A DNA stretch of 64,000 bases from Massilia atriviolacea (GTDB lineage Bacteria > Pseudomonadota > Gammaproteobacteria > Burkholderiales > Burkholderiaceae_D): assembly GCF_003953935.1 (NCBI RefSeq), contig NZ_RXLQ01000013.1, positions 124,001 through 188,000 of the forward strand, given 5' to 3'. Under the pieces are notes generated by a model, which was not told the origin of the DNA, ran no database searches, and worked only from the letters and a program-made list of their open reading frames with translations. Within the stretch, counting starts at the first letter, position 1. Every line of letters starts with the position of its first letter. A program made the position numbers and the translations under genes. Shown one piece after another: positions 1,952-54,042 of this stretch.

Positions 1952-2140
1952 GTTATTATTTCGGCTAAATCCCCGCCTGACACCCTCTGCCGCCCTTCCC
2001 TATATTGAATTTGCGCACACCGTCACCACCATAGTGTTGCAAGATAAAAAAGGAACTGGCTGGTGATAGCGATGGTCCCCGAAGCAGGGTCGGCTTATCC
2101 TCCAGGCGTTATTGACCCCCTACCTCATTTAGAGGAAAAC

Positions 2141-2467
2141 ATGAGCGAAAATATTAAATACATTAGCGATGCATCTTTCGAAGCGGACGTCCTCAAGTCG
2201 GACCGTCCGGTGCTGGTCGATTTCTGGGCCGAATGGTGCGGTCCATGCAAGCAAATCGCTCCGATCCTCGAAGAGATCAGCCAGGAATACGACGGCAAGG
2301 TCGTCATCGCCAAGATGGACGTCGACGCCAACCAGCAGGTTCCCGCCAAATTCGCCATCCGCGGCATTCCAACCCTGGTTCTGTTCAAGAACGGTGTTGA
2401 AGCGGCCCGCATGGTCGGCAACAATGGCAAGGGCAAGCTGACCGCTTTCCTGGACAGCAATATCTGA
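2141..2467 (+). CDS. trxA: Thioredoxin
   Basis: A 108-residue cytoplasmic thioredoxin, the usual family length. The redox motif WCGPCK is near residue 32, preceded by VDFWAEWC. The cis-Pro loop is in IRGIPTLVLF and the conserved C-terminal part is GKLTAFLDSNI. It reduces disulfides in cytoplasmic partners using electrons from thioredoxin reductase. The frame is open further upstream to a GTG at 2063, but the ATG at 2141 has an AGAGGA ribosome site and begins the normal family N-terminus. The gene precedes rho, a frequent arrangement in betaproteobacteria. Confidence 0.97.
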   Translation: MSENIKYISDASFEADVLKSDRPVLVDFWAEWCGPCKQIAPILEEISQEYDGKVVIAKMDVDANQQVPAKFAIRGIPTLVLFKNGVEAARMVGNNGKGKLTAFLDSNI

Positions 2468-2613
2468 ATAAGTAAGTACAACGTGACGTCGGCGCGCCCG
2501 CGCCGCCGTCTTGTCCGGCCGGGAAGCGCGCCGGCCTCGACCGACTTCTTCCCGGATGATTAACCCACGCAGTTCCCTCCCCTACCTTTACTTCCCGTCA
2601 CGGGACTCAACTC

Positions 2614-3876
2614 ATGCACTTATCTGAACTGAAGGCCATGCATGTCTCCGCACTATTGGAGATGGCGATTGGCCTCGATATCGACAACGCAGCCCGCCTG
2701 CGCAAACAGGAACTGATGTTCGCCATTCTCAAGAAGCGCGCGAAATCGGGCGAACAGATTTTTGGCGACGGCGCTCTCGAAGTGCTGCCGGACGGCTTCG
2801 GCTTCCTGCGCTCGCCCGACGCCAGCTACATGGCGTCCACCGACGATATCTATATCTCGCCTTCGCAGATCCGCCGATTCAACCTGCATACGGGCGATTC
2901 GATCGAAGGCGAAGTGCGCACCCCGAAGGACGGCGAGCGTTATTTCGCGCTGGTCAAGGTCGACAAGGTCAATGGCGAATCTCCGGAAGCGAGCAAGCAC
3001 CGCATTCTGTTCGAGAACCTGACCCCGCTGCACCCGAACGAGCCGCTGCGCCTCGAGCGCGAAATGAACGGCCAGGAAAACATCACCGGCCGCATCATCG
3101 ACCTGATCGCCCCGATCGGCAAGGGCCAGCGCGGCTTGCTGGTGGCTTCGCCGAAGTCGGGCAAGTCGGTGATTCTGCAGCACATCGCGCATGCGATCAC
3201 CGCCAACCATCCGGACTGCACCCTGATCGTGCTGCTGATCGACGAACGTCCTGAAGAAGTGACCGAAATGCAGCGCTCGGTGCGCGGCGAAGTGGTCGCC
3301 TCGACCTTCGACGAGCCGGCGACGCGCCACGTGCAAGTGGCCGAGATGGTGCTCGAAAAGGCCAAGCGCCTGGTCGAAATGAAAAAAGACGTGATCATCC
3401 TGCTGGACTCGATCACCCGCCTGGCGCGCGCCTACAATACCGTGATCCCGGCCTCGGGCAAGGTCCTGACCGGCGGCGTGGACGCCAACGCGCTGCAGCG
3501 TCCGAAGCGTTTCTTCGGTGCGGCCCGGAATATCGAAGAAGGCGGCTCGCTGACCATCATCGCCACCGCCCTGATCGAAACCGGTTCGCGCATGGATGAC
3601 GTGATCTACGAGGAATTCAAGGGCACCGGCAACATGGAAGTCCACCTCGAGCGCCGCCTGGCCGAGAAGCGCGTCTACCCTGCGATCAACCTGAACAAAT
3701 CGGGCACGCGCCGCGAAGAGTTGCTGATCAAGGCCGACCAGCTGCAGAAGATCTGGATCCTGCGCAAGCTGCTGTACTCGATGGACGAGATCGAAGCGAT
3801 GGAGTTCATCCTCGACAAGATGAAGGCCACGAAGAACAACAATGAGTTCTTCGACATGATGCGCCGCGGCGGGTAA
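2614..3876 (+). CDS. rho: Transcription termination factor Rho
   Basis: A 420-residue hexameric RNA-dependent ATPase that ends transcripts. In order: an N-terminal helical Rho_N domain (starts [18 protein letters not shown]), a cold-shock-like primary RNA-binding domain (GFGFLRSP, residues ~50-120), and a RecA-type ATPase. The ATPase has Walker A ASPKSGKS, Walker [17 protein letters not shown] and the secondary RNA-binding Q/R loop region around [13 protein letters not shown]. Length and motifs are typical. A strong intrinsic terminator follows immediately. The gene lies downstream of trxA with a 146-bp gap that holds GC-rich inverted sequence but no clear terminator. Confidence 0.98.
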
Positions 3877-3937: not shown

Positions 3938-4163
3938 GGGGTCAGACCCCGGTTTTTCCCTTGGGGGTCTGACCCCGGTGTTGGCTTGGGGGTCTGACCC
4001 CGGTGTTGGCTTGGTGTTGGCTTGGGGTCAGACCCCGGTTTTTCCCTTGGGGGTCTGACCCCGGTGTTGGCTTGGTGTTGGCTCACACACCGGGGTCAGA
4101 CCCCTAACAGAAAAACCGGGGTCTGACCCCTCCCCCCTAACAGAAAAACCGGGGTCTGACCCC
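3938..4163. repeat. Cluster of eight GGGGTCWGACCCC palindromes
   Basis: The 13-base palindrome GGGGTC(A/T)GACCCC occurs at 3938, 3964, 3989, 4024, 4050, 4092, 4118 and 4151. The copies are joined by two kinds of spacer: CGGTGTTGGCTTGG-like and TAACAGAAAAACC-like. Copies with central A or T are the same palindrome read from opposite strands. The block fills most of the 417-bp gap between rho and rpmE2. No protein-coding signal is credible in it; the short reverse ORF across it only reflects the repeats. The pattern resembles REP-type intergenic repeats moved in trans by RAYT-family transposases. That link is inference, as no transposase is in the window. Confidence 0.9.
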
Positions 4164-4182
4164 TCCCAGGCTAAAACCGATG

Positions 4183-25584: not shown

Positions 25585-25950
25585 TGTCCACCCCGGTGCC
25601 AGGTCTGACAATCGGACACGGGCTGGACTGTCTCTGTCCACCCCGGTGCCAGGTCTGACAATCGGACACGAGCTGGACTGTCTCTGCAATCAACGGATGG
25701 GCCCGTGTCCACTGCGGTGCCAGGTCTGACAATCGGACACGGACTGGACAGTGCTAACAACTTAAGGCTGAGCTTGTCCACTGCGGTGCCAGGTCTGACA
25801 ATCGGACACGGACTGGACAGTGCTGACAACTTAAGGCTGAGCTCGTGTCCGAAAGTCAGACCTGGCACCGGGGTGGACACGGACTGGGCCGGACTGGCAA
25901 CCCAAAGCTGGGCTCGTGTCCGAATGTCAGACCTGGCACCGGGGTGGACA
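25585..25950. repeat. Six copies of a 36-bp GTCTGAC repeat, four direct and two inverted
   Basis: Copies start at 25585, 25635, 25706 and 25775 on the plus strand. Inverted copies are at 25844-25879 and 25915-25950. Each has the arms TGTCCA(C/T) and CGGACACG and the central block GGTGCCAGGTCTGACA. The spacers also repeat (GGACTGGACAGTGC, AACTTAAGGCTGAGCT), giving a period near 50-70 bp. The plus and minus sets face each other around 25825. The block ends 31 bp before thiL and so must contain or precede its promoter. The core GGTCTGAC is shared with the cluster at 3938. Confidence 0.92.
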
Positions 25951-35761: not shown

Positions 35762-36256
35762 TCAGAACAGGTGGGCGGCCAGGCTGAACTGCCGGTCGGC
35801 CTCTGCGCACAGGAAGCGCTCCGGCGCGATGGCCTCGCCATAGGCGACGTTATAGATCACTTCCGAGTACTCCTGGCCGAGGTAGGACGTATGGCGACCG
35901 TTGAGCACCAGGCGCGCGCTCTGGCCGGGGGCGAGGCGGATGGCGCTGTTGCTCGGCGAACGGCGCGGCTGGCCTTCCGAGGGGTCCCATTTCAGGCCGA
36001 GCACGAGCACGCCGTCGTCGCGCTCGCGCAGGATCAGGCTGCGTTCCTTGAGCGGGGCCCGGTCGGCCTGCCTTTCCTTTTTCAGCACGGCGGCGAAGCC
36101 TTCCTGTTCATGCATCAGGTAGTGCTGGCAGGCATACGCCGCGCCGGTGTGCGGCAGGATAAAGGCGCGTGGCAGCCGCGCCCGCTCGTTGGCGCGCGGG
36201 GCGCCGCGGGTGGCCTTGGTCCAGCGGATTTCGACGACCTGGACCGCGATCAGCAC
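35762..36256 (-). CDS. Hypothetical protein coupled to the SMI1/KNR4 gene
   Basis: 164 residues, not recognised. It has no signal peptide or membrane helix. The sequence alternates charged and hydrophobic residues (RSLILRERDDGVLVLGLKWDP, SARLVLNGRHTSYLGQEYSEVIYNVAYGE), suggesting a compact beta-rich fold. The GTG start overlaps the stop of the SMI1/KNR4 gene by seven bases, so the two are co-translated. It may be a partner of that protein. Coding status is supported by the overlap and its clean frame. Confidence 0.62.
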   Translation of the reverse strand: MLIAVQVVEIRWTKATRGAPRANERARLPRAFILPHTGAAYACQHYLMHEQEGFAAVLKKERQADRAPLKERSLILRERDDGVLVLGLKWDPSEGQPRRSPSNSAIRLAPGQSARLVLNGRHTSYLGQEYSEVIYNVAYGEAIAPERFLCAEADRQFSLAAHLF

Positions 36257-36873
36257 GCGCCCTGCGCCTTGCGCCGCAGGTAGTCGAGGAAGTGGTCCGT
36301 GCAGGGATTCACGGTGGACAGGCTGAACGCGTCCTCGTCCTCTTCCACCAGCACGTAGTCGCCATTCTCGTACAGGCCGAGCAAGCGTTCCAGGAAGTGT
36401 TCCAGGCTGGCGCCGGCCTGCACACGGATGAATTCACGGCCGCCGAACGTGATCACCTGGCCCGCGCTGCCGGCGGCATCGGGGTCGAGGTCGACGCCCA
36501 GGTAAGCGCCGCCGGCGTCATCGGCCAGCGGAATCCACGCCCTGCTGGCGGCAGCTTGACGGATGGTGCCGGGCGGCAGGCAAGTGTAGGCGGAAACATC
36601 ACCCACGGATTCGCCGGCTGTTTCGCTGTTCCAATGCGCCAGGGCGGCAGAGAGAGGCAGGAACGGCAAACCGAAGAACAGGCCGGGCGCCGCATGGCCA
36701 GCCTGGCCGTCGTGCCAGCGGTACAGCGCCCGCAGCGGCGGCGGCAATGGCCTGCCGATGGCGCGCTCGAAGGTGTCAATCCCGGCATCGCTGGCGCCCG
36801 CATTCAGGTCGGCCTCCATGGCGGGGAAGCGCGCTGCGATGCAGGCTTGCAGGCGGTCGAGCAAGTCGTTCAT
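36250..36873 (-). CDS. SMI1/KNR4 family protein
   Basis: 207 residues from MNDLLDRLQACIAARFP; the frame extends 69 bp upstream. The SMI1/KNR4 (SUKH) signature is in FERAIGRPLPPPLRALYRWHDGQ, then the LFFGLPFLPLSAALAHWN region. A later block is AYLGVDLDPDAAGSAGQVITFG. A C-terminal helix ends in CTDHFLDYLRRKA. Bacterial members are often immunity proteins of contact-dependent toxins, but many are stand-alone. No toxin gene is adjacent. It is coupled to the small unknown gene downstream. Confidence 0.8.
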   Translation of the reverse strand: MNDLLDRLQACIAARFPAMEADLNAGASDAGIDTFERAIGRPLPPPLRALYRWHDGQAGHAAPGLFFGLPFLPLSAALAHWNSETAGESVGDVSAYTCLPPGTIRQAAASRAWIPLADDAGGAYLGVDLDPDAAGSAGQVITFGGREFIRVQAGASLEHFLERLLGLYENGDYVLVEEDEDAFSLSTVNPCTDHFLDYLRRKAQGAC

Positions 36874-36948
36874 TGCGTATCCAACGCAGAAAAACAGCCG
36901 CAACACGCGGCGTCTGCCGGACAGGCAAACGCCGGTGCGCATTGCGCC

Positions 36949-38579: not shown

Positions 38580-39434
38580 CTATGATAGCAAGGCCTCGGG
38601 AAGCTGCACAGAAGGCGGGTGAATTGCACTGTCGGCAAGACGGCGCAGCAGGTGGCCGGCGGCCACCATGCCGAAGGTCGCGGTGACCACCATGCTCGAT
38701 CCGAAGCCGGCGCAATTGAGGCCGGTGATGCCTTCGCCGTCGATCTGGCAGCTCTCTTCGCCGGCCGGCATGGTCAGCGGCTCCATCGAGAACACCGCAT
38801 CCACGTTGAACTTGGTTTTCAGGCTGCGCGGAAAGCCGTACTGGCTGCGCAAGCGCTTGCGCACCATTTTCAGCAGCGGTTCCTGCTCGGTCCTGGACAG
38901 GTCGCGCAATGCGATGCGGGTCGGGTCGGTCTTGCCGCCGGCGCTGCCGATGATCACCATCGGCAATTGATGGTCGCGGCAGTAGGCGATCAGGGCGGCC
39001 TTGGCCTTGACGCTGTCGATGGCGTCGACCACGTAGTCGTACCGGTGGGCGCCGATCATCTGGTCGAGGTTGTCGGGATCGATGAATTCCTCGATCAGGT
39101 TGACCTTGCAGAAGGGATTGATCTGGGCGATGCGCTCGGCCAGCGCGCCGATCTTGGCCTGGCCGATGGTGCCGCTCATGGCCTGGATCTGGCGGTTGAT
39201 GTTCGATTCGGCCACGTTGTCGAGGTCGATCAGGGTGAGCTGGCCGATGGCCGAGCGCGCCAGCGCCTCGACGATCCAGGAGCCGACGCCGCCGACGCCG
39301 ATCACGCACACATGGGCGCTGCGAAAGCGCGCCAGCGCGGCCTCGCCGTACAGGCGGCCGATGCCGCCGAAGCGGCGTTCGAAGTCGACCTCGCCGGATG
39401 CGGGAGGAAGGGAGGGGGTGGTGATGGTATTCAT
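38580..39434 (-). CDS. tcdA: tRNA threonylcarbamoyladenosine dehydratase
   Basis: 284 residues with the E1-like/ThiF fold. The N-terminus ERRFGGIGRLYGEAAL and the nucleotide motif VIGVGGVGSWIVEALARS match TcdA (CsdL). DLDNVAESNINRQIQA is the ATP-contact region. YVVDAIDSVKAKAALIAYC and the FGSSMVVTATFGMVAAGHLLRRL end are typical. It cyclises t6A to ct6A at position 37 of ANN-decoding tRNAs. tsaC, needed for t6A itself, is at 54055. It is divergent from the hemerythrin-PdxH gene. Confidence 0.94.
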   Translation of the reverse strand: MNTITTPSLPPASGEVDFERRFGGIGRLYGEAALARFRSAHVCVIGVGGVGSWIVEALARSAIGQLTLIDLDNVAESNINRQIQAMSGTIGQAKIGALAERIAQINPFCKVNLIEEFIDPDNLDQMIGAHRYDYVVDAIDSVKAKAALIAYCRDHQLPMVIIGSAGGKTDPTRIALRDLSRTEQEPLLKMVRKRLRSQYGFPRSLKTKFNVDAVFSMEPLTMPAGEESCQIDGEGITGLNCAGFGSSMVVTATFGMVAAGHLLRRLADSAIHPPSVQLPEALLS

Positions 39435-39516
39435 GCCGCCATTTTAACGGACGCGGCCGGACCGACTGCTCTAAAATGAGCGTTATGTTCCCACCAGCCA
39501 CAAGCGAGAAATCTCC

Positions 39517-40719
39517 ATGAGCTACGCCCTGCCCGACAGCGCCCCCGGCTTCGACCAGCCGATCGCGGTGCTGAAACACTGCCACGACCGCATCCGCAAA
39601 CAGCTGGCGACCCTGGAAAAATTGCTCCCTCACCTGGCCAGCCACGGCGCCGACGAGGAGGCGCGCCAGGCCGCGCGCGCGGTGATCAAGTATTTCGACC
39701 AGGCCGCGCCGCTGCATCACGAAGACGAGGAACAGAACCTGGTGCCGATGCTGCACAGCACGGCCAGCGGGGCCGACGCCGCGCTGCTGGCCGAACTGGT
39801 GCCCGGCATCCTCGACGAGCACCGCCAGATGGATGGCATCTGGCAAGACCTGCACGAGCAGCTGCGCGCCATCGCCGACGGCGCCGCCGCCGTGCTGCGC
39901 GCGCACGACGTGCAGCGCTTCGCCGCCATGTACCGCAGCCACATGGAGCGCGAAGAAGGCCATATCGCGCCGATGGCCAAGCGCCTGTTCAGCGCCGCGC
40001 AGATGGCCGCGCTGGGCCAGGCGATGCAGCAGCGGCGCGGCATCGCCCCGAGCGCCGCCCCGGCCCCGGCGGCGGCGACCGGCGACGCCGTGGCCAGCCT
40101 GCGCAAGGACTACGGCCAGGCCAGCCTGAGCGAGACCGACGTGGCGGACGATCCCTTCGTGCAATTTACCACCTGGTTCGAGGAAGCGCTCAAGGCCCAG
40201 GTCAACGAGCCGAACGCGATGAGCGTGGCGACCGTCGACGAACAGGGCCGGCCGACCTCGCGCATCGTGCTGATCAAGCAGTTCGATCCGCGCGGCTTTA
40301 CCTGGTACACCAATTACCACAGCCAGAAGGGGCGCCAGCTGGCCGCCAACCCGCATGCGGCATTACTGTTCTTCTGGACGGAACTCGAACGCCAGATCCG
40401 GATCGAAGGGAAGGTGGAGCGCACTTCCGAGGAAGAGAGCGACAAGTATTTCCACAGCCGTCCGCTGAAAAGCCGGCTGGCCGCGATTGCGTCCGCACAA
40501 AGCGAGCCGATCGCCAACCGCGACGCGCTGGAACAGCACTATGAGGCAGTCGCCAGGCAATTCGGCGAGGAGCCGCCGCGTCCCGACAACTGGGGCGGCT
40601 TCCGCCTGGTACCCGAACGCATCGAGTTCTGGCAGGGACGCCGCTCGCGCTTTCACGACCGCATCGTGTACACGCTGCAAAGCGATGGCAGCTGGGTGCG
40701 CGAGCGCTTGCAACCTTAA
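39517..40719 (+). CDS. pdxH: Hemerythrin-pyridoxamine 5'-phosphate oxidase fusion
   Basis: 400 residues in one uninterrupted frame. Residues ~14-160 form a hemerythrin HHE domain with the expected metal ligands: H23 in [10 protein letters not shown]67/E71 in [12 protein letters not shown]102 in [11 protein letters not shown] and H142/E146 in [12 protein letters not shown]. An Ala/Pro linker (~165-192) follows. Residues ~195-400 are a complete Pdx[73 protein letters not shown] and a C-terminal ERLQP. PdxH uses FMN and O2 to make pyridoxal phosphate. The hemerythrin part could bind O2, iron or NO. Normal PdxH proteins lack it. Confidence 0.95.
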
Positions 40720-40769
40720 GCGGCCTGCGTGCACGCACACGGGCCTGCCGTCATCGACCGGAGGTGCCT

Positions 40770-42011
40770 GTGTTCCAGCAGATCAGACTGAAGGCCTGGA
40801 GCGAGGGGCTGCGCAGCCAGCCCTCGCTGCCATTGCGGGTGGAATTGTGGAACGGGCAGCGTTTCGATTTTTCGCCCGAAGCGCCGCGCGTGACGGTGCG
40901 CGTGCCGCGCCCGGGCGCGCTGCGCTATTTGCTGTCGCCCTCGCTGTACACGCTGGGCCGCGCGTACGTCGAAGGCGCGCTCGATGTCAGCGGGCGCGCC
41001 AGCGACATGATCGCCGTGGTCAATGCGCTGGCCGGCGATCCACTCGCCGCCAGGCAGCCCGCGCTGGGGCGCCTGCTCGGCGCGCTCGGCGATGCGCTGG
41101 GCGACGCACTCGGCGGCGGCCACACGCGCCAGCGCGATGCGCGGGCGGTGCGCTACCACTACGATGTGTCCAACGATTTCTACGGCGCCTGGCTCGATCC
41201 GAACATGGTGTATTCCTGCGCCTACTTCGAGAACGGCAGCGAAACGCTGGCCGAGGCGCAGCTCGGGAAGATCGACCACATCCTCACCAAGATCGGCCTG
41301 CGGCCCGGCCACCGCCTGCTCGACATCGGCTGCGGCTGGGGCGCGCTGGCGATCCGGGCGGCCCAGCGCTACGGCGCGCGCTGCGTCGGCATCACCCTGT
41401 CCGACAACCAGGCCAGGCTGGCGCGCGAACAGGTCCAGCGGGCCGGCCTGCAAGGGCTGGTCGACATCCGCCTGCAGGATTACCGCGACGTCGGCGGGCA
41501 GTTCGACCGCATCACCAGCGTGGGCATGTTCGAGCACGTGGGCGTGCGCCAGCTGCCGGCGTACTTCCGCCGCATGGCGACCCTGCTCGCGCCCGACGGC
41601 GTGGCGATGAACCACGGCCTGACCAGCACCGATCCGGACGGCCGCGGCGTGCCGCACGGTGGCGGCGAATTCATCAGCAAGTATGTGTTCCCGCGCGGGG
41701 AACTGGCGCACCTGGGCACGGTGGTCAAGGCCATGCAGCAAGGCGGGCTGGAGGTGCGCGACGTGGAAAACCTGCGGCGCCACTACGCGCGCACCTGCGC
41801 CATGTGGAGCGAGAATTTCGAGGCGAATGCGGAGCGCATCAAGGGCTTGACCGACGCGCGCCGTTTTCGCATCTGGCAGGTGTACCTGGCCGGGTGCACG
41901 CATGCGTTCGCGCATGACTGGATCAGCCTGTACCAGATCGTGTGCGGCAAGGCCGGGCGCGATCCGGCGCCGATACCGTGGTCGCGGCGCTACATGTATG
42001 CGCAGGCGTGA
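40770..42011 (+). CDS. cfa: Cyclopropane-fatty-acyl-phospholipid synthase family methyltransferase
   Basis: 413 residues. The N-terminal domain has the YVEGALDVSG block of CFA synthases. YHYDVSNDFYGAWLDPNMVYSCAYF is the active-site signature. The SAM motif is LLDIGCGWGALAIRAA, and ITSVGMFEHVG and GEFISKYVFPRGEL follow. It methylenates unsaturated acyl chains in membrane phospholipids. Two GTG codons start the frame, at 40764 and 40770. GGAGGT overlaps the first, so the second is preferred. It lies 50 bp after the hemerythrin-PdxH gene on the same strand. Confidence 0.9.
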   Translation: MFQQIRLKAWSEGLRSQPSLPLRVELWNGQRFDFSPEAPRVTVRVPRPGALRYLLSPSLYTLGRAYVEGALDVSGRASDMIAVVNALAGDPLAARQPALGRLLGALGDALGDALGGGHTRQRDARAVRYHYDVSNDFYGAWLDPNMVYSCAYFENGSETLAEAQLGKIDHILTKIGLRPGHRLLDIGCGWGALAIRAAQRYGARCVGITLSDNQARLAREQVQRAGLQGLVDIRLQDYRDVGGQFDRITSVGMFEHVGVRQLPAYFRRMATLLAPDGVAMNHGLTSTDPDGRGVPHGGGEFISKYVFPRGELAHLGTVVKAMQQGGLEVRDVENLRRHYARTCAMWSENFEANAERIKGLTDARRFRIWQVYLAGCTHAFAHDWISLYQIVCGKAGRDPAPIPWSRRYMYAQA

Positions 42012-42545: not shown

Positions 42546-43199
42546 CTAGTAGCGTTGATAGCCTTGCGAACCCGGATAGCCCTGGCCGGCGAAACCCGGA
42601 TAGCCCTGGCCGGGGAAGCCCTGGAAGCCGATGCCGGGGAATCCCTGCCCCCCCTGGAAGCCGAACGGGCCCTGGAAGCCCTGCCCGCCCTGGAAGCTGC
42701 CCATGCCCTGCGGTCCCTGGTAGCCCTGCTGCCCGACGAAACCCTGGAATCCCAGCGGCCCGACGAAGCCGCTCGGCCCCTGGAAGCCGAACACCGCCTG
42801 CGGCCCCTGGTAGCCCTGCTGTCCCTGGCCGCCCTGGAAGGCGAAGGGGTTGAAGAAACCGGGTCCCTGCGCGCCCTGGAAGCCGAACGGCCCGAAGACG
42901 CCTTGCGACCCCTGGAAGCCGACCATGGCCTGCGGGCCCTGGAAGCCGAACGGACCGACCGAGCCCTGGAAGCCGAGCGGGCCGATGACGGCCTGCGTGC
43001 CCTGGAAGCCGCCCGACGCCTGCGGCCCCTGGTAGCCCTGCGGCCCCTGATAACCCTGCACCCACGGGACGCCCTGCCCAGCCTGTACGCCAGGGAAGTC
43101 GGGGACGATCCGGATCGACGTCATCCGTTGTCCGCTAAGGGCGTGAATTTGACGAATCTGATCGTCGTTCAGCGATAACACCAAGCCTTGTTCATTCAT
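42546..43199 (-). CDS. Collagen-like Gly/Gln/Phe repeat protein
   Basis: 217 residues from MNEQGLVLSLNDDQIRQIHA; the frame extends further upstream with no better start. After ~40 residues the protein becomes quasi Gly-X-Y triplets dominated by GFQ, GYQ, GPQ, GPF and GQG, with interruptions (for example QGYQGPQGYQGPQ, GPFGFQGPQ, GQGYPGFAGQGYPG). Phe, Tyr and Gln are unusually frequent and charged residues are almost absent. Classical bacterial collagens have far more Pro, Lys and Glu. No signal peptide, anchor or membrane helix is evident. It may self-assemble or phase-separate, which is inference. The gene downstream shares its N-terminal motif. Confidence 0.78.
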   Translation of the reverse strand: MNEQGLVLSLNDDQIRQIHALSGQRMTSIRIVPDFPGVQAGQGVPWVQGYQGPQGYQGPQASGGFQGTQAVIGPLGFQGSVGPFGFQGPQAMVGFQGSQGVFGPFGFQGAQGPGFFNPFAFQGGQGQQGYQGPQAVFGFQGPSGFVGPLGFQGFVGQQGYQGPQGMGSFQGGQGFQGPFGFQGGQGFPGIGFQGFPGQGYPGFAGQGYPGSQGYQRY

Positions 43200-43477
43200 G
43201 TCCGTGCACTCCTCTGGATTTAAAGAAAGATCAACAATGACGCGTTGAGAAAAATTGCTCGTAAGCCGCTGCGCCTGCCGGGCGTCGGGCACATGTCCCG
43301 CAGGCGTGACTCAGAATAAGCTGACGGCGATGCCGGGGTACCTGACGCTTCGTATAGGGCCTCCCCTATCCGAATCGACAGGCGACAAAGCGCCGCGCGC
43401 GGCAGCGGAGCGCTTCTGCCAGCAAAAAAAATGGAAAGGGGAATCAGGAGTTGAACCGCGCCACTGGCGGCGGCGCC

Positions 43478-52494: not shown

Positions 52495-54042
52495 TCAAGG
52501 CGCCAGGGCGGCGTTGAAGAAGCCGCGCGCGGCGCTCAGGCAGAACGGCGGCACCAGGCCGGCGTGGTAGGTGTCGGCCACGGCGCGGTCGCCCGAATCG
52601 CCGTTCTTGATGGCGTTGAGCCTGACGGCCAGCTTGGCGGCGGCGAAGTTGCTCTTGACCGCGCGGTAAGGGTCGGTGCTGCCCGGGGTGTCGTCGACGT
52701 CGACTTCGGTCACCAGCCCGCTGCCGCTGCCGGCGCGGAAGTAATCGACGGCGGCGCGCGTGTTGCTGTATGCCACGGTGCGGTCTTCATGGCCGCCGCA
52801 CAGCAGCAGCGGCGCGCTTGGCACGAAGGTGCGCAGGTCGTTCTTGACGAAGAGCTTGCGCAGCGGATGCGCCGGTGCGCAGGCCAGCGGCGCGCCGGCG
52901 CTCACGTTGCACGGATGGGCTTTCAGGTCGGCCAGGTAGGCGTTGCGGTAGCTGGTCTTGAACAGGTTGCCGCCGCCGAAGTAATCGGCGTAGCCGTCCG
53001 CCTGCGGCTGCGAATCCTTGGCGAACAGGGCGTTGTCGGGCCAGCCCGGGGTTTTCAGCAATTCTTCCACGGTGATGCTGCCATTGGCGAACTTGTCGAC
53101 GGCGGCCGCGAAAGGCGCTTCGTACAGCTCGCCCGAGGCGGCATACACGCCGGCGCCGGCGCGCTGGCCGGCGTTGATCAGCGCCGGCAGGAAGCCGGTG
53201 GCGCCCTTGCCTGGCTTGCCGTTGAACATCTCGTCGCCGAACTGGGCCAGCGCGTAGGGGCCGGACATGCCGGCCACGGCCGTCACCTTGAACTCGGCGG
53301 ACAGGCCCTGCATGGCGCGCTGGGTGGCCACCGCCACGTAGCCGCCCTGCGAGTAGCCGGTCAAGAACAGCTTGCCGGAATCGGCCGTCTTGATGGCGCC
53401 GAACACGCTGCGCGCGGCGCGCAGGCCGTCGATCATGTCGTTCGATTGCTGGACGGCATCGAGATAAGGATGGTAGGCCAGCGCGGAATTGGCGTAGCCG
53501 GCGTAGTTCGGCGCGACCACGATGTAGCCGCGGGCGGCGAACATGGCGGCGATCAGGCGCGATTCGGTGTTGGCCAGGGTCGACAGGTCGTAGTTGCGTT
53601 CGGACGAAGTGCCGTGCGCGTACAGCACTACCGGGCGCGGGCCGCTGCATTCCGCGTCGGTGCCGGACGGCACCATGATGGCGGCGCTGGCGTCGGTCGC
53701 TTCATTGGCGCCGCCGACGGTGTTGTAGCGCACCTTCCAGGTCGTGACAGCGCACTTGAGCTCGCCCGTGATGGCGGTGGTGCCGGCGTTGAGCGAATCG
53801 AGCAGCTTGCCGAACACGGCCGGGTCGAGGGTGGTGACGTTGGCGCCGTTGGCGCTGACCGGCATGAGGGCCGCGCCGCCGCCGATGACGCTGCCGCGCG
53901 CGGCGGGCGGGGTCGGGGTCGGCGTGGGGACCGGGGTCGGGGTCGGGGTCGGGGTCGGGGTGGGCGTCGGGGTGGGCGCGTCGTCGCCGCCTCCACAAGC
54001 CGTTAATGATAGGGTGAGGAGGGCAGCGAAAGCGAGGCGCAT
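52495..54042 (-). CDS. Lipoprotein alpha/beta hydrolase (secretory lipase-like)
   Basis: 515 residues. The lipobox is LTACGGG with Cys near residue 16. A Thr-Pro repeat linker covers residues ~23-46. The hydrolase has VVLYAHGTSSER, GYIVVAPNYAGYANS and the nucleophile elbow GYSQGGYVAVATQ. The late LLLCGGHEDRTVAY segment carries the candidate Asp, and the His is in DTYHAGLVPP. It resembles secreted lipases/peptidases of the LIP family. Its neighbour at 50936 is also an envelope hydrolase. It is 12 bp downstream of the tsaC gene stop on the same strand. Confidence 0.88.
   Translation of the reverse strand: MRLAFAALLTLSLTACGGGDDAPTPTPTPTPTPTPTPVPTPTPTPPAARGSVIGGGAALMPVSANGANVTTLDPAVFGKLLDSLNAGTTAITGELKCAVTTWKVRYNTVGGANEATDASAAIMVPSGTDAECSGPRPVVLYAHGTSSERNYDLSTLANTESRLIAAMFAARGYIVVAPNYAGYANSALAYHPYLDAVQQSNDMIDGLRAARSVFGAIKTADSGKLFLTGYSQGGYVAVATQRAMQGLSAEFKVTAVAGMSGPYALAQFGDEMFNGKPGKGATGFLPALINAGQRAGAGVYAASGELYEAPFAAAVDKFANGSITVEELLKTPGWPDNALFAKDSQPQADGYADYFGGGNLFKTSYRNAYLADLKAHPCNVSAGAPLACAPAHPLRKLFVKNDLRTFVPSAPLLLCGGHEDRTVAYSNTRAAVDYFRAGSGSGLVTEVDVDDTPGSTDPYRAVKSNFAAAKLAVRLNAIKNGDSGDRAVADTYHAGLVPPFCLSAARGFFNAALAP
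53905..53976 (-). repeat. GGGGTC-type hexamer microsatellite coding for a Pro-Thr linker
   Basis: Tandem GGGGTC/GGCGTC hexamers on the plus strand code for alternating Thr-Pro on the minus strand. The unit is a multiple of three, so slippage would change linker length without a frameshift. Confidence 0.85.

Follow-up and report, generated by a model that had tools for sequence, protein, structure and literature searches.

Is the frame at 39517-40719 on the plus strand of the window (the whole stretch of DNA analysed here, 64,000 nucleotides) one gene for one protein, and if so, what might a hemerythrin-type HHE domain be doing on the same chain as a pyridoxamine-phosphate oxidase (PdxH)? The features on which the answer turns are the following:

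39517-40719, plus strand: fused hhe-pdxH gene, 400 aa (open frame; Pfam domains over cut-offs; open along its whole length in 15 of 17 genomes of the genus)
39559-40029, plus strand: HHE four-helix domain, residues 15-171 (PF01814, pLDDT, fold match to NMB1532, invariant ligand-type residues)
40039-40086, plus strand: Ala/Pro linker of variable length, residues 175-190 (length spread, low pLDDT, highest regional dN/dS)
40087-40716, plus strand: PdxH, an FMN-dependent PNP/PMP oxidase domain, residues 191-400 (TIGR00558, match to 1g76, active-site residues)
38580-39434, minus strand: ThiF-family protein, a divergent neighbour outside the fusion (PF00899; at 41 of 43 fused family loci)
40764-42011, plus strand: cyclopropane-fatty-acid-synthase-like methyltransferase (cfa), downstream and outside the fusion (PF02353; at 37 of 43 fused family loci)

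Domain structure of the fused protein

The gene is a single uninterrupted ATG frame of 400 codons whose three Pfam domains all score over the curated cut-offs: Hemerythrin (PF01814) at residues 15-154 (E 1e-15, 58.8 bits against a cut-off of 25.3), PNPOx_N (PF01243) at residues 221-346 (E 1.7e-30) and PNP_phzG_C (PF10590) at residues 359-400 (E 3.6e-20). The protein also belongs to the pdxH family TIGR00558, which it matches at 272.4 bits (cut-off 180) over model positions 1-190 of 190, and its best solved sequence relatives are E. coli PdxH (1g76, E 7.9e-53) for residues 191-400 and NMB1532 for residues 11-174. An earlier sequence-only reading had described one frame with an HHE domain, an Ala/Pro linker and a full PdxH, and the open frame, the Pfam domains and TIGR00558 confirm that description; a stop between residues 165 and 195, which would have divided the frame into two genes, was sought there and none was found.

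In the structure predicted by AlphaFold2 from 42 fused sequences (mean pLDDT 87.5, pTM 0.51), ten-residue pLDDT means are 88-97 in HHE residues 11-160 and 69-97 from residue 201 onward, and pLDDT falls below 50 at linker residues 178-189. Foldseek matched the model to PdxH 6ylz (TMt 0.87) and to NMB1532 2p0n (TMt 0.93, rmsd 1.7). Start codons are common in the linker stretch of the 113 fused sequences (94 distinct), with ATG in 18, GTG in 82 and TTG in 16, and a Shine-Dalgarno-like motif precedes them in 3 and is absent in the other 110 (one locus, L128, which has no ATG near the expected start and lies at a contig end, was left out of the linker and start-codon analysis). The window itself offers no good internal start for a free PdxH, the sole candidate being a GTG at residue 192 without such a motif, and a promoter scan of 39300-40900 found no sigma-70-type site.

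The PdxH half and the vitamin B6 pathway of the host

Searches of the host's own genome (7.36 Mb, rated 100% complete) with the PdxH C-terminal domain PF10590 and with the whole protein returned one match each, so neither revealed a second pdxH; a normal second copy beside an inactive fused one is what the sequence-only reading had said would lower the significance of the fusion. PdxJ gave one match in the same genome and PdxS none. PdxJ-type synthesis gives PNP, which PdxH must then oxidise. Since the fused PdxH is the only one found, PdxJ is present and PdxS is absent, de novo PLP should run via the fused protein, which is almost surely the working PNP oxidase of its host; we infer FMN-dependent PNP/PMP oxidation from the same three observations.

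The active site is consistent with this assignment. Residues K254, Y311, R315, R378 and H380 of the window protein are the equivalents of E. coli K72, Y129, R133, R197 and H199, of which K72, R197 and H199 are kept in all 94 distinct fused proteins and Y129 and R133 in 93, the exception being locus L057. According to the structure titles, K72, Y129, R133 and H199 are the four mutated positions of 6ylz, which are described as engineered active-site variants (PMC8215295). The exceptional locus (L057, genome G034, 2042-3259) is a fused, fast-evolving copy in which the equivalents of both Y129 and R133 are changed, and the same genome gives a second match.

Ligand-type residues and class of the HHE half

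Neither the 94 distinct fused proteins nor the 28 split ones show any variation at eight ligand-type residues (H23, H67, H68, E71, E72, H102, H142 and E146), nor at H21, C22, D70 and E147. In RIC/YtfE proteins the ligands are H84 and H204, H129 and H160, with E133 and E208 bridging (PMC9268430), and the corresponding pattern H, HxxxE, H, HxxxE is present here as H23, H67/68-E71/72, H102 and H142-E146. The motif of O2-carrying hemerythrins and known hemerythrin-domain sensors, H-HxxxE-HxxxH-HxxxxD (PMC9388753), is found in none of the 94 fused proteins. Where O2 carriers have the second His of helix C, at position 106, the fused proteins have D in 86 cases, E in seven and F in one, never His, and helix D reads HxxxEE, with E at position 147. 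The earlier statement that the domain has all expected metal ligands thus stands for an HHE/RIC-type site, with its eight invariant residues, and fails for the canonical O2-carrier motif. Because His does occur at position 106 in three of the 28 split relatives and, by alignment, in NMB1532, this position varies across the wider HHE subfamily. The ligand pattern is a better match to di-iron proteins of the RIC type than to the motif of O2 carriers, and with its RIC-like set of four His and two Glu the HHE domain probably holds two iron atoms.

With the RIC model TIGR03652 the score is 25.8 bits, far short of the cut-off of 204.7; the N-terminal DfCCgG (ScdA_N) motif is absent, C22 being the single Cys of the window protein. 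That motif is present in most bacterial RICs and missing from the RIC of N. gonorrhoeae (PMC9268430), so its absence is not decisive. The ribosome-binding persister protein PA2171 (NF053874; PMC13041383) was rejected as an identity at 32 bits against a cut-off of 190, and 28 of 29 HHE relatives match the same model at E up to 0.001 (best 3.3e-10). Five other HHE proteins are encoded in the host's own genome, two of which match the profile of this HHE subfamily weakly and three of which do not match it at E 0.01, so that by profile search any kinship with them is at most weak.

Distribution of fused, split and HHE-less loci

The fusion spans its full length without a stop in 15 of the 17 genomes of the genus, and the other two (G011 and G013) hold pieces in different frames. 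In a sample of 195 family genomes, 180 gave a match. Full-span matches were free of stops in 55 genomes and interrupted by one or two in-frame stops in 18; two more genomes (G033 and G136), in which the match began at residue 177-179, proved to be fused when the loci were read. The two-domain architecture, which the sequence-only reading had proposed to search for among relatives, is thus present in at least 57 of the 195. The 15 family genomes without a match include all 12 sampled from one genus of small genomes (g7), in which neither domain was matched.

Classification of 93 family loci, picked to span genera and not at random, gave 43 fused, 30 split (hhe directly upstream of pdxH as a frame of its own, the phase being shared in 18 and different in 12) and 20 without HHE at pdxH. 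The broken pieces of G011 and G013 (L016, L017, L019 and L020) were left out of this count. The HHE-less class includes L018, the additional pdxH of G014, a genome whose contamination is rated 5; this copy is probably a contaminant and was left out of the trees. The split class includes L055, whose HHE is cut by a stop, and L072, whose HHE is cut by a contig end, neither of which is among the 28 split HHE proteins or in the concatenated tree. In L055 (G114, genus g28, 173-1315) a stop ends the HHE frame while the domain is still incomplete. In L067 (genus g38, 2175-3079) pdxH bears a short extension at its N-terminus and HHE is missing, either through natural loss or because this line never had one. 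These HHE-less loci, L067 included, imply that PdxH can do without HHE.

Seen from the HHE side, association with pdxH is the rule: among the best 80 of at least 530 confirmed HHE relatives, 71 are fused to pdxH and nine lie adjacent to it, the adjacent cases including Undibacterium, Noviherbaspirillum and metagenome bins. The fusion hosts are bacteria of soil and water, namely Massilia, Duganella, Janthinobacterium and their kin, and the nearest relatives among the same best 80 of at least 530 are Massilia species. The roughly 3 kb around 40 pdxH loci outside the family but within the order, likewise chosen to span families and not at random and some of them cut by contig ends, yielded no relative of this HHE in a search with a subfamily profile (E 0.001) whose sensitivity is such that it finds two of the genome's own five other HHE proteins at E 0.01. 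Profile A1 matched 241 of 399 genomes in the order (13 of these from the own family), 203 of 369 in the class and 253 of 398 in the phylum; there was no full-span match outside the own family among the matches listed, from samples that overlap and in which few candidates were scored per genome, so that a rare or divergent fusion could escape.

Origin of the fusion and selection on its domains

On a PdxH tree, for which 12 of the 40 other-family loci served as outgroup, the 43 fused rows need two state changes because the HHE-less L067 falls among them; the branch of 44 rows has an SH-aLRT of 91 and its core of 39 fused rows one of 99. The fused rows form one side of a branch in the concatenated HHE and PdxH tree (SH-aLRT 75), and two changes are needed on the HHE-only tree. 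When the fused rows were held together in the PdxH alignment, the likelihood exceeded that of the free search, with a p-AU of 0.70 that is no proof of one clade, the group having been named after the tree was seen. The trees are compatible with one operon-to-fusion event at moderate support, below 80 on the concatenated tree, and the simplest history would be an hhe-pdxH gene pair early in the family followed by a single fusion in the Massilia/Duganella/Janthinobacterium lineage. No independent fusion elsewhere appeared among the matches listed in the order, class and phylum profile surveys.

Judging by pooled Nei-Gojobori dN/dS, both domains are under purifying selection. Values for 15 genus members, L065 being left out for want of an identified start codon, are 0.31 for HHE, 0.52 for the linker and 0.14 for PdxH, and for the seven closest genomes they are 0.23, 0.36 and 0.12. 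The fusion has been kept over wide divergence, down to 54% identity. The two-domain protein is confirmed as real and under selection. The rate of HHE relative to PdxH is alike in fused and split proteins (slope 1.36 vs 1.42), suggesting that fusion neither relaxed nor tightened HHE visibly, which argues against a strong new constraint from the fusion.

Surroundings of the fused gene

The divergent ThiF-family protein upstream, which we take to be TcdA-like, and the cfa-type gene downstream accompany most of the fused family loci. Other features of the window lie further away. At 42546-43292 on the minus strand lies a gene for a collagen-like protein (248 aa, Pfam Collagen) with GYQG/GFQG-type repeats after a non-repeat head, and a SMI1/KNR4 (SUKH-1) protein at 36250-36942, also on the minus strand, adjoins a PALP (cysteine-synthase-like) gene. 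Three regions are repetitive: palindromic GGGGTCTGACCCC repeats are clustered in short tandem arrays at 3938-4167, a tandem array at 25585-25950 has units of 50-71 bases with a common GGTGCCAGGTCTGACA-type core that also occurs in inverted form, and the hexamer CGGGGT is repeated 11 times at 53908-53973 (80% matches).

Possible roles of the HHE domain

The length of the linker, counted between the RR of HHE and the LR of PdxH, ranges from 13 to 52 residues among those of the 113 fused sequences in which both motifs could be located. This spread, together with the low confidence of the linker in the model and the pTM of 0.51, gives no sign of a fixed domain interface. The linker is best seen as a flexible tether. 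Its variable length and the low pTM speak against tunnelling and against any precise allosteric contact, and the substrate channelling suggested earlier finds no backing in them.

We lean, tentatively, towards a PNP oxidase of the ordinary kind carrying a tethered di-iron module that acts on nearby H2O2, NO or iron. A stop between existing hhe and pdxH genes would have been lost once to give a single chain, in which the HHE di-iron module is tied to the N-terminus of PdxH by a flexible linker of variable length. Lying beside the flavin site, the module could react with H2O2 as the oxidase gives it off, or with NO; alternatively it could handle unbound iron, which would otherwise convert H2O2 into radicals. 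In either case the fusion would fix a 1:1 ratio and co-localisation without a rigid interface. The adjacency of hhe and pdxH in unfused relatives, the conserved ligand-type residues and the status of the protein as sole PdxH support this reading, and there are precedents in a hemerythrin-like di-iron protein of Mycobacterium kansasii (HLP) with weak catalase and NO peroxidase activity (PMC8913304) and in the protection of enzymes by hemerythrin HerA in C. jejuni (PMC4257069). A role towards H2O2 is drawn from proteins with differing ligand sets, such as the Tyr of the mycobacterial HLP. Counting against a tethered module are the 20 of 93 loci without HHE, the cut HHE of L055, the faster evolution of HHE than of PdxH and the pTM of 0.51. 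HHE may have a regulatory or protective role.

Nearly as likely is that the fusion is passive, a quite possible outcome in which HHE has a job of its own (for example as an iron donor, as proposed for RIC), is merely co-expressed with PdxH, and was joined to it by loss of a stop, the flexible linker rendering the join harmless, with no functional coupling. A linker that is variable and fast-evolving, the low pTM, the like relative rates of HHE and PdxH in fused and split proteins, the 20 of 93 loci at which PdxH lacks HHE and the retention of the other neighbours (tcdA and cfa) would all suit such a history. However, the best 80 of at least 530 HHE relatives all sit at pdxH, and persistence of the fusion down to 54% identity is more than bare co-expression needs.

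A regulatory sensor, in which the state of the di-iron site (iron supply, redox or NO) would alter the N-terminal arm of PdxH and so tune PLP synthesis, is rather unlikely. Its attraction lies in the E. coli enzyme, where PLP feedback shifts Arg197 onto residues 18-20 (PMC8215295). A helix at residues 188-195 of our model, at the end of the linker, aligns with part of E. coli H0 (residues 5-18), so that the tether would join near the arm touched by Arg197 in the feedback state. Moreover, two of the three Arg-cage residues of the feedback site are replaced: Arg23 and Arg24 of E. coli (equivalents of residues 205-206 here) give way to S/N/D/T/M and mostly E, Arg23 in 94/94 fused proteins and Arg24 likewise in 94/94, and Arg215 is kept in all fused and unfused family PdxH examined. 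Yet the same replacements are as common in unfused family PdxH (Arg23 in 49/49, Arg24 in 47/49), so the change did not come with the fusion, and we rejected fusion as the explanation for loss of the R23/R24 cage. The fourfold spread of linker lengths and the pTM of 0.51 also fit precise allostery poorly. The more specific form of the idea, a built-in iron, NO or peroxide sensor that would move the N-terminal arm to cover or uncover the active site of PdxH, is quite unlikely, though if true the supply of active vitamin B6 would be set directly by the iron or nitrosative state of the cell and di-iron sensing would be linked to cofactor synthesis on one chain.

The sequence-only reading had proposed instead a module that binds O2 and either supplies it to the oxidase or measures it, and this we regard as decidedly doubtful. 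PdxH does use O2 (PMC8215295), hemerythrin domains fused to effector domains sense O2 (PMC9388753), and His106, as in O2 carriers, is present in three of 28 split relatives and in NMB1532. Against it, all 94 fused proteins depart from the O2-carrier motif, with D, E or F at position 106 and E at position 147; given the His106 of those relatives, this makes O2 chemistry less likely, short of excluded. As a whole, the earlier interpretation is partly supported.

Last, an artefact, whether a sequencing frameshift or two genes misread as one, has next to no probability: although hhe and pdxH are separate in many family genomes, in some of them sharing a frame that a stop interrupts, the fusion is intact over many genus and family genomes (15/17 and at least 57/195) and in 71 of the 80 best HHE loci, and 110 of 113 fused sequences have no start preceded by a Shine-Dalgarno-like motif in the linker stretch, so the frameshift explanation was rejected.

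When the members of a conserved gene pair go on to fuse, this is a good indication that their products work together. Here the fusion ties this HHE subfamily to the final reaction of vitamin B6 synthesis, and thereby offers a handle on a role in peroxide or NO chemistry, iron or regulation, for which fused, split and HHE-less relatives provide a natural comparison series within one bacterial family.

Comparison with known systems

Hemerythrin domains occur in many fusions (PMC4919030), and an extra domain on a PNP oxidase is already known from Arabidopsis PDX3; what appears new is the pairing of HHE with PdxH. We did not find it described in the open-licence literature, judged mostly by titles and the openings of abstracts. 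A survey of O2-binding hemerythrin types lists 56 architectures, and its main text contains neither 'pyridox' nor 'PNPOx' (PMC4919030); the single hemerythrin mention in another source is a table line naming a hemerythrin-like protein (PMC5080296).

The closest solved fold to the HHE half is NMB1532 of Neisseria meningitidis (2p0n, function not assigned; TMt 0.93, rmsd 1.7, 29% identity), with which it has in common H23, HHxDEE, H102 and HxxxEE by alignment; unlike our protein, NMB1532 is single-domain and has Ala at position 21 and His at 106 (HxxxH). The RIC/YtfE/ScdA iron-centre repair proteins share the pattern H, HxxxE, H, HxxxE (PMC9268430) and a weak TIGR03652 match, whereas the window protein falls far under the family cut-off, lacks the N-terminal Cys-Cys and is fused to an enzyme. 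M. kansasii HLP is likewise hemerythrin-like and di-iron, has four His and two Glu ligands and is no O2 carrier, but it is an NO peroxidase with an extra Tyr ligand not seen elsewhere (PMC8913304). In the hemerythrin-domain sensors DcrH and VcBhr-DGC a hemerythrin-type domain is also joined to another functional domain; the canonical O2-binding motif and signalling outputs are theirs and set them apart (PMC9388753).

The PdxH half resembles E. coli PdxH/PNPO (1jnw, 6ylz) along its whole chain in the fold search (42-45% identity), keeping the active-site residues and the C-terminal region, although the E. coli enzyme is single-domain and retains Arg23 and Arg24, which the unfused relatives of our protein have lost too. 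Known PdxH proteins had been taken to be uniformly single-domain, a claim contradicted by Arabidopsis PDX3, a two-domain PNP oxidase (PMC10517258). PDX3 resembles the fused protein in carrying another domain on the same chain and differs in what that domain is, an NAD(P)HX epimerase (NNRE) instead of HHE (PMC10517258); no Pfam match to a PDX3-type NNRE (YjeF_N) domain was obtained in the window protein at E up to 0.001, where the place beside the oxidase is taken by the HHE domain.
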